Of a stretch of 64,000 bases of DNA, positions 37,535 to 38,294 are shown piece after piece. Every line of letters starts with the position of its first letter. The first letter of the stretch is position 1. The DNA is from Aeromonas enteropelogenes (lineage in GTDB: Bacteria; Pseudomonadota; Gammaproteobacteria; Enterobacterales; Aeromonadaceae): assembly GCF_000819845.1 (NCBI RefSeq), contig NZ_CDCG01000006.1, positions 62,001 through 126,000 on the forward strand. Reading direction: 5' to 3'. The position numbers and the translations under genes were made by a program. The notes under the pieces were generated by a model. It made no database searches, was not told the DNA's origin, and saw only the letters and a list, made by a program, of their open reading frames with translations.

Positions 37535-37647
37535 ATAAAAATGAGGCCGAATGACAGTGCTGTCACCCGGCCTGAAACAAGAAGTTCAAAAAATTGGGAA
37601 GAAGCTGATTCTTGAGAACCACGACGATAGGTATTTCCTCAAGAAGC
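37535..37647 (-). ncRNA. Candidate sRNA downstream of spf
   Basis: Minus-strand element with its own parts: an extended -10 promoter (TGTTAGAAT, -10 at 37658-37653), a 5' hairpin with 8-bp arms TTCTTGAG / CTCAAGAA, a single-stranded pyrimidine-rich middle (CTTCTTCCC...TTTTTTG), and a strong terminator (stem GGCCGggtGACAG / CTGTCattCGGCC, then CATTTTTATC). There is no open frame of note. The size (about 110 bases), structure and place next to Spot 42 fit an Hfq-type trans-acting sRNA. No function can be given from the sequence. Confidence 0.6.
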
Positions 37648-37703
37648 ACCTCATTCTAACAAATGCACTGACAAATTAAAGCATTTACTCTAAATGCTGC
37701 GCA

Positions 37704-38033: not shown

Positions 38034-38294
38034 TCAAAGATAGATGGCGCCATCTTCGCCAAACTCTTGTTCTTCAATGAGTTTTTCCGCTATATCCTCA
38101 ATGTCAAAGCGCACACTTTCGAATGCCCGCACTATGTCATCTTCCTTCGTCAGTACAAGCCCGGTCATTTTCTCCAGTCTGCGGCGGCTGATGTAGCAAT
38201 TGATCAGCGCACCCATCTGCTGGGCCGGGAAGTGCACCCGCTGCTCTTGAGCTTGCCACTCCATCAAGTCGGGAAAAAAAATACCTTGGTTCAT
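38034..38294 (-). CDS. yrdB: DUF1488 family protein (YrdB)
   Basis: An 86-residue acidic protein of the DUF1488 family (VHFPAQQMGALINCYISRRRLEKMTG and CDIED-like helix near the C-terminus). No function is known. It overlaps the aroE stop (ATGA), so it is translated with aroE, as yrdB is in E. coli. Confidence 0.85.
   Translation of the reverse strand: MNQGIFFPDLMEWQAQEQRVHFPAQQMGALINCYISRRRLEKMTGLVLTKEDDIVRAFESVRFDIEDIAEKLIEEQEFGEDGAIYL

Follow-up and report, generated by a model that had tools for sequence, protein, structure and literature searches.

A probable uncatalogued small RNA gene directly downstream of spf in Aeromonas, with a predicted pairing site in the fadL leader

Several regulatory RNAs have been described in the chromosomal surroundings of spf, the gene for Spot 42, or in connection with fatty acid metabolism. 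In E. coli, CsrC is encoded near spf and engB and sequesters CsrA by means of many GGA loops. In Aliivibrio and Vibrio, the gap between spf and engB includes VSsrna24, an RNA of about 60 nt which is repressed by glucose, independently of cAMP (PMC3295665). The E. coli fadL mRNA is paired with and repressed by RybB (reviewed in PMC9329746), FadZ of Salmonella is processed from the 3′ UTR of fadBA and acts as a repressor of porins (PMC10703908), and FarS of V. cholerae is cited in PMC9329746 as acting on fadE.

The window analyzed here is a 64,000-nucleotide stretch of DNA from Aeromonas enteropelogenes. The sequence just 3′ of its Spot 42 gene very probably corresponds to a real sRNA of Aeromonas and of several related marine bacteria, and this sRNA is very probably uncatalogued. 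None of the Rfam 15 models gave a family match with it; model RF00021, when run against the locus, matched spf alone, the sRNA showing neither sequence nor structural match. In the open-access literature searched, the sRNA is not mentioned for Aeromonas or Photobacterium. The features of the locus are listed in Table 1.

Table 1. Positions of the sRNA gene, its elements and its neighbors in the window
Feature	Position	Strand	Remarks
Spot 42 (spf), upstream neighbor	37819-37705	(-)	RF00021, 102.5 bits, E 3.4e-20; own terminator
18-bp near-palindrome TTAGAGTAAATGCTTTAA, probable operator	37693-37676	(-)	about -47 to -30; 3′ end doubles as -35
-35 element CTTTAA	37681-37676	(-)	3′ end of the near-palindrome; far from TTGACA
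-10 element TAGAAT, extended TG-T-TAGAAT, TGTTAGAAT	37658-37653	(-)	17 bp from -35; read from sequence
sRNA gene	~37647-37537	(-)	~110 nt; predicted start 7 nt past -10; end at the T-run after the terminator
5′ hairpin	37645-37609	(-)	arms TTCTTGAG (37645-37638) and CTCAAGAA (37616-37609)
Seed CAGCUUCUUCCCAAUU	37607-37592	(-)	mostly single-stranded; 16-nt perfect complement of the fadL 5′ leader
Terminator stem-loop	37573-37544	(-)	13 pairs, then CATTTTTAT (UUUUU in RNA)
HexR-type palindrome TGTAATTAAATTACA, exact	37516-37502	(-)	just past the sRNA terminator

The near-palindrome begins twelve bases past the end of spf, and the sRNA is predicted to start with GCUUCUUGAGGAAAUACC; a U/C-rich stretch (CAGCUUCUUCCCAAUUUUUUGAAC) lies between the 5′ hairpin and the terminator. 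The fold has an MFE of -36.0, compared with -21.7 +/- 2.9 for shuffled sequences (z -4.88; 0 of 200 shuffles as good). A covariance model built from the sRNA (R1) scores 112.6 bits at the window locus (E 3e-22). The next gene, engB, is convergent to the sRNA gene, which lies in the spf-engB gap. A preliminary description of this DNA had proposed an sRNA gene here, made up of an extended -10, a 5′ hairpin, a pyrimidine-rich single strand and a terminator. The minus strand carries all of these elements, and the proposal is supported by the conserved promoter, fold and terminator together with the lack of an Rfam match. Both sequence and conservation are those of a free-standing gene with its own promoter and intrinsic terminator, and we infer from the sequence that it is transcribed. 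The only small open reading frame in the region has 19 codons and a GTG start. As the T-run following CCCAA varies from 4 to 6 T within the genus, any reading frame is broken, and the locus thus holds no protein gene, as had been claimed.

Thirty-five of the 37 Aeromonas species genomes carry the unit complete, promoter and hairpin being kept as the preliminary description had asked to be checked. In one A. media genome, the unit is interrupted in the loop of the 5′ hairpin; the interruption has insertion-element-like ends (GTAAGCGCC / GGGCGCTTAC) flanked by repeated AAAACC, and represents a natural gene disruption. Genome G006 is the only one from which the unit is absent. Base pairs are kept in 97% of the cells of the genus alignment. 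The covariation expected of the 5′ hairpin was borne out only in part: pairing of this helix is maintained in 98.6% of the cells, but its changes are G-U-compatible only, and two-sided compensatory changes are found instead in the terminator stem (four pairs). The seed is near-invariant and among the least variable parts of the sRNA. Outside Aeromonas, model R1 gave just two weak matches in other Aeromonadaceae genera (E 0.029 and 0.52), which were not accepted; its best match at Vibrio and other spf loci (E 0.14) lies upstream of spf and was taken as chance.

The 18-bp near-palindrome, missed in the preliminary description, is conserved in nearly all genomes of the genus while the 17-nt spacer to the -10 drifts; the -10 itself is kept as TAGAAT, TAAAAT or TATAAT across 36 genomes. 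Judging from the sequence, the near-palindrome is a probable operator, and as such it implies a dedicated regulator. In each genome of the genus the pattern occurs solely at the sRNA promoter, save for one extra copy in the window's own genome. This copy, which precedes vipA, a gene of type VI secretion, is missing from every other genome of the genus and was taken as chance.

BLAST and pattern searches with the sRNA over the window's own whole genome revealed, outside the locus, a single 16-nt perfect complement (contig C18, 296581-296596). It is located in the leader of a gene identified as fadL by its PF03349 match; other near-matches to the seed complement lie within coding sequences or on the wrong strand. 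The target search suggested earlier with the CTTCTTCCC stretch was therefore well aimed, as this stretch is the seed and its match the fadL leader. FadL is the outer-membrane importer of long-chain fatty acids. The start codon follows ~97 nt after the site, which is just past the predicted transcription start (about +8 to +24), and GGGAAGAAGCU is conserved in the fadL leader across the genus. An exposed conserved seed thus faces a complementary, conserved leader site. The predicted duplex energy is -29.0 kcal/mol; among the 104 other gene starts compared, the best value is -21.4, and fadL ranks first of 105.

Changes in the seed are matched in the site. In G028, taken as A. sobria, pair 11 has gone from C-G to U-A, the seed C having become U and the site G having become A. 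Pair 1 of the duplex is C-G in 13 genomes, U-G in 11 and U-A in 2, the latter being the deep lineages G009 and G029; G029 has CCCU facing AGGG where the others have CCCA facing UGGG. In G006, which lacks the sRNA gene, the fadL site GGGAAGAAGCT has changed to AGGTAATAAGCT. As G006 is nested well inside the sRNA-bearing species in a rooted fadL tree, the loss is derived, sRNA and site having been lost together. When fadL sites were permuted among the Aeromonas genomes, 513 pairs were observed versus a mean of 505.6, and 12 of 2000 permutations were as high, a modest support that is uncorrected for kinship. Two-sided changes of seed and site are few, though clear, and G005 and G024 show only weak pairing.

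The operator and -10 pattern was then scanned over 84,980 species genomes. Downstream of spf it is present in Aeromonas, Photobacterium, Enterovibrio, Grimontia, Veronia, one Vibrio, Plesiomonas, Rheinheimera/Arsukibacterium and one Shewanella, a few contigs ending too early to place spf and the spf of Algicola being missed by the simple spf pattern used. Operator and spacing, followed by TATAAT, are identical in other families. The remaining matches, a handful in unrelated groups, were counted as chance. In Photobacterium the sRNA starts with AGCUUCUUGUUCAUAUUUG, a 5′ end for which a single-stranded state is predicted; in Aeromonas the equivalent GCUUCUUG is taken up in the fold, and it is a second copy, AGCUUCUUCCC, that lies exposed. 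At eight loci of other families (f21, and f10, the latter Shewanella-like by content), different conserved units with a strong terminator were observed downstream of spf, for example GTGCTTTGTCC... and AGTGCTTTCAG...; these units suggest that the spf gap holds more sRNAs. At two loci of another Aeromonadaceae genus (g2), a TPP riboswitch is located closely 3′ of a weak Spot 42 match, on the same strand.

The fadL match extends to other genera. In Photobacterium, the differing 5′ end of the sRNA (AGCUUCUUGUUC) matches GAACAAGAAGCU in the fadL leader, where GAACAAGAAGC(U), just upstream of the Shine-Dalgarno sequence, is its complement; AAGAAGC is found in a fadL leader in 18 of 24 Photobacterium genomes, about a quarter being without the site. 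Second fadL-like genes, noticed at five Photobacterium loci, begin with ATGAACAAGAAGCGT or sequences close to it, which come near to full complementarity with the sRNA 5′ end over the start codon. These genes could be further targets, or merely reflect a common Met-Asn-Lys-Lys start. In Grimontia, up to 14 pairs form over the Shine-Dalgarno sequence (-27.0 kcal/mol), and in Plesiomonas the match covers the start codon. Here two genomes were compared, G046 (taken as Plesiomonas) and its genus-mate G071: in one, CUUGUU of the RNA faces AACAAG in fadL (AUGAACAAGAAG), and in the other CUUAUU faces AAUAAG (AUGAAUAAGAAG), that is, a G-C to A-U swap. Matching changes of this kind in RNA and target indicate, at the level of sequence, that the sRNA pairs with the fadL mRNA. 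Compared with ~150 other gene starts, fadL was among the best 2% for 19 genomes out of 39 (0.8 expected), with the caveat that CUUCUU seeds pair easily with purine-rich gene starts; it does not stand out in G231 or in Veronia pacifica, and some Photobacterium and Veronia genomes show no pairing. The fadL site was not found in five Vibrio genomes that lack the sRNA gene.

We consider it likely, from gene anatomy, conservation, complementarity, compensatory changes and coupled loss, that the locus encodes a stand-alone, trans-acting sRNA of about 110 nt, transcribed from a regulated promoter of its own immediately 3′ of spf, whose exposed U/C-rich seed would pair with the 5′ leader of the fadL mRNA and most likely represses its translation. 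Pairing would block access of the ribosome, by masking the Shine-Dalgarno sequence in Grimontia, the start codon in Plesiomonas and the region just upstream of the Shine-Dalgarno sequence in Photobacterium, and translation would fall. Sites so placed imply repression, and the sRNA probably shuts down the fadL mRNA. In Aeromonas, pairing over the first ~25 nt of the leader, at its 5′ end and with a conserved hairpin between the site and the Shine-Dalgarno sequence, would rather block a standby or entry site of the ribosome. By analogy, the sRNA is probably Hfq-dependent; its tail, of just five U, is short for Hfq. The distance of ~97 nt that separates the Aeromonas site from the start codon, and its position at the very start of the leader, upstream of that hairpin, would also fit an sRNA that activates fadL or stabilizes its mRNA, by protecting the 5′ end or releasing an inhibitory fold. 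We regard this as unlikely, considering where the sites are placed in the other three genera and that the Aeromonas seed site has no predicted pairing to the Shine-Dalgarno sequence.

Slightly less probable still is that the sRNA is real but acts mainly on other mRNAs or on Spot 42, and that the fadL match is of minor importance or has been kept on other grounds, ribosome standby for instance. It would account for the good conservation of the fadL leader on both flanks of the site and for Rheinheimera, Arsukibacterium and Algicola, which carry the sRNA gene and no fadL ortholog at E 1e-60; the co-change of seed and site in G028, G029 and Plesiomonas, the decay of the site where the sRNA was lost and a match that follows the seed in Photobacterium argue against it. 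That there is no gene at all, but a chance promoter-like string next to a spare terminator or a read-through 3′ end of spf, is very improbable: a consensus promoter scan did not call the promoter and its -35 is weak, but spf is closed by a terminator of its own, the promoter elements have been kept where the spacer has drifted, and the near-invariant seed is tied to fadL. Least credible of all is that the sRNA is the Aeromonas version of VSsrna24, a relationship that the preliminary description had raised on account of the shared intergenic region downstream of spf (PMC3295665). The VSsrna24 core TCTCTCCCGTTGCCCC, read by eye from Vibrio loci, is present with its terminator ~420 nt downstream of the sRNA promoter and operator, within the same gap, in Photobacterium, Enterovibrio, Grimontia hollisae, one Vibrio and Plesiomonas, the order in several genera being spf - sRNA gene - VSsrna24. 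As both co-occur in one gap they are separate genes, and orthology was rejected; the ~60-nt core-plus-terminator unit is absent from the sRNA locus of the window.

The HexR-type site past the sRNA terminator has the motif quoted as a HexR site in PMC11906056. It is conserved across genera as TGTAATTAAATTCCA, preceding VSsrna24 where the latter exists, and it probably belongs to the next unit and not to the sRNA gene. Control of VSsrna24 by HexR would explain glucose repression independent of cAMP. Between this site and engB, at 37500-37260 (-), the window has genus-conserved boxes (TGAAAACGNTATCA, GTTAATTC), possibly another transcription unit; a VSsrna24-like terminator is absent from this interval. 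On the other side of spf, a hairpin with a strong terminator is located at 38030-37917 (-), between spf and a small ORF (38034-38294), and either terminates the aroE unit or represents a further small RNA.

It is about an even guess that the spf-engB gap as a whole constitutes an island of carbon-source sRNAs, comprising Spot 42 (CRP), the new sRNA (with its own regulator and a palindrome unique to its promoter) and, in many genera, VSsrna24 with a HexR-type site in front of it, the seed of the new sRNA having been rewired from genus to genus (CUUCUUCCC in Aeromonas, GCUUCUUGUUC in Photobacterium, CUCUUCUUG in Plesiomonas) with fadL as the constant target. To a locus that is among the longest known for sRNAs, the work adds a probably uncatalogued sRNA conserved across several gammaproteobacterial families, and offers for it a specific, testable target; if true, control of carbon use of the Spot 42 type would be tied to fatty acid uptake. 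It may also represent one of the rare instances where a seed and its target can be followed as they change in step, down to the site disappearing once the RNA was gone.

With respect to known systems, the sRNA shares with CsrC its chromosomal neighborhood, but has a single GGA and a single-stranded CUUCUUCCC seed where CsrB and CsrC have multiple GGA in hairpin loops. Like VSsrna24, it is a second sRNA in the spf-engB gap on the strand of spf; VSsrna24 differs in its length, promoter and core (TCTCTCCC), and lacks the TTAGAGTAA operator. Spot 42 adjoins it on the same strand and is likewise a carbon-metabolism sRNA with its own terminator, with a different seed and promoter. FadZ and FarS are also sRNAs of fatty acid metabolism, whereas the new sRNA has its own promoter and the importer as predicted target. 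RybB, lastly, is also a base-pairing sRNA on the fadL mRNA, which the new sRNA is predicted to repress as well; RybB is sigma-E dependent and enterobacterial, and differs in sequence, locus and promoter.
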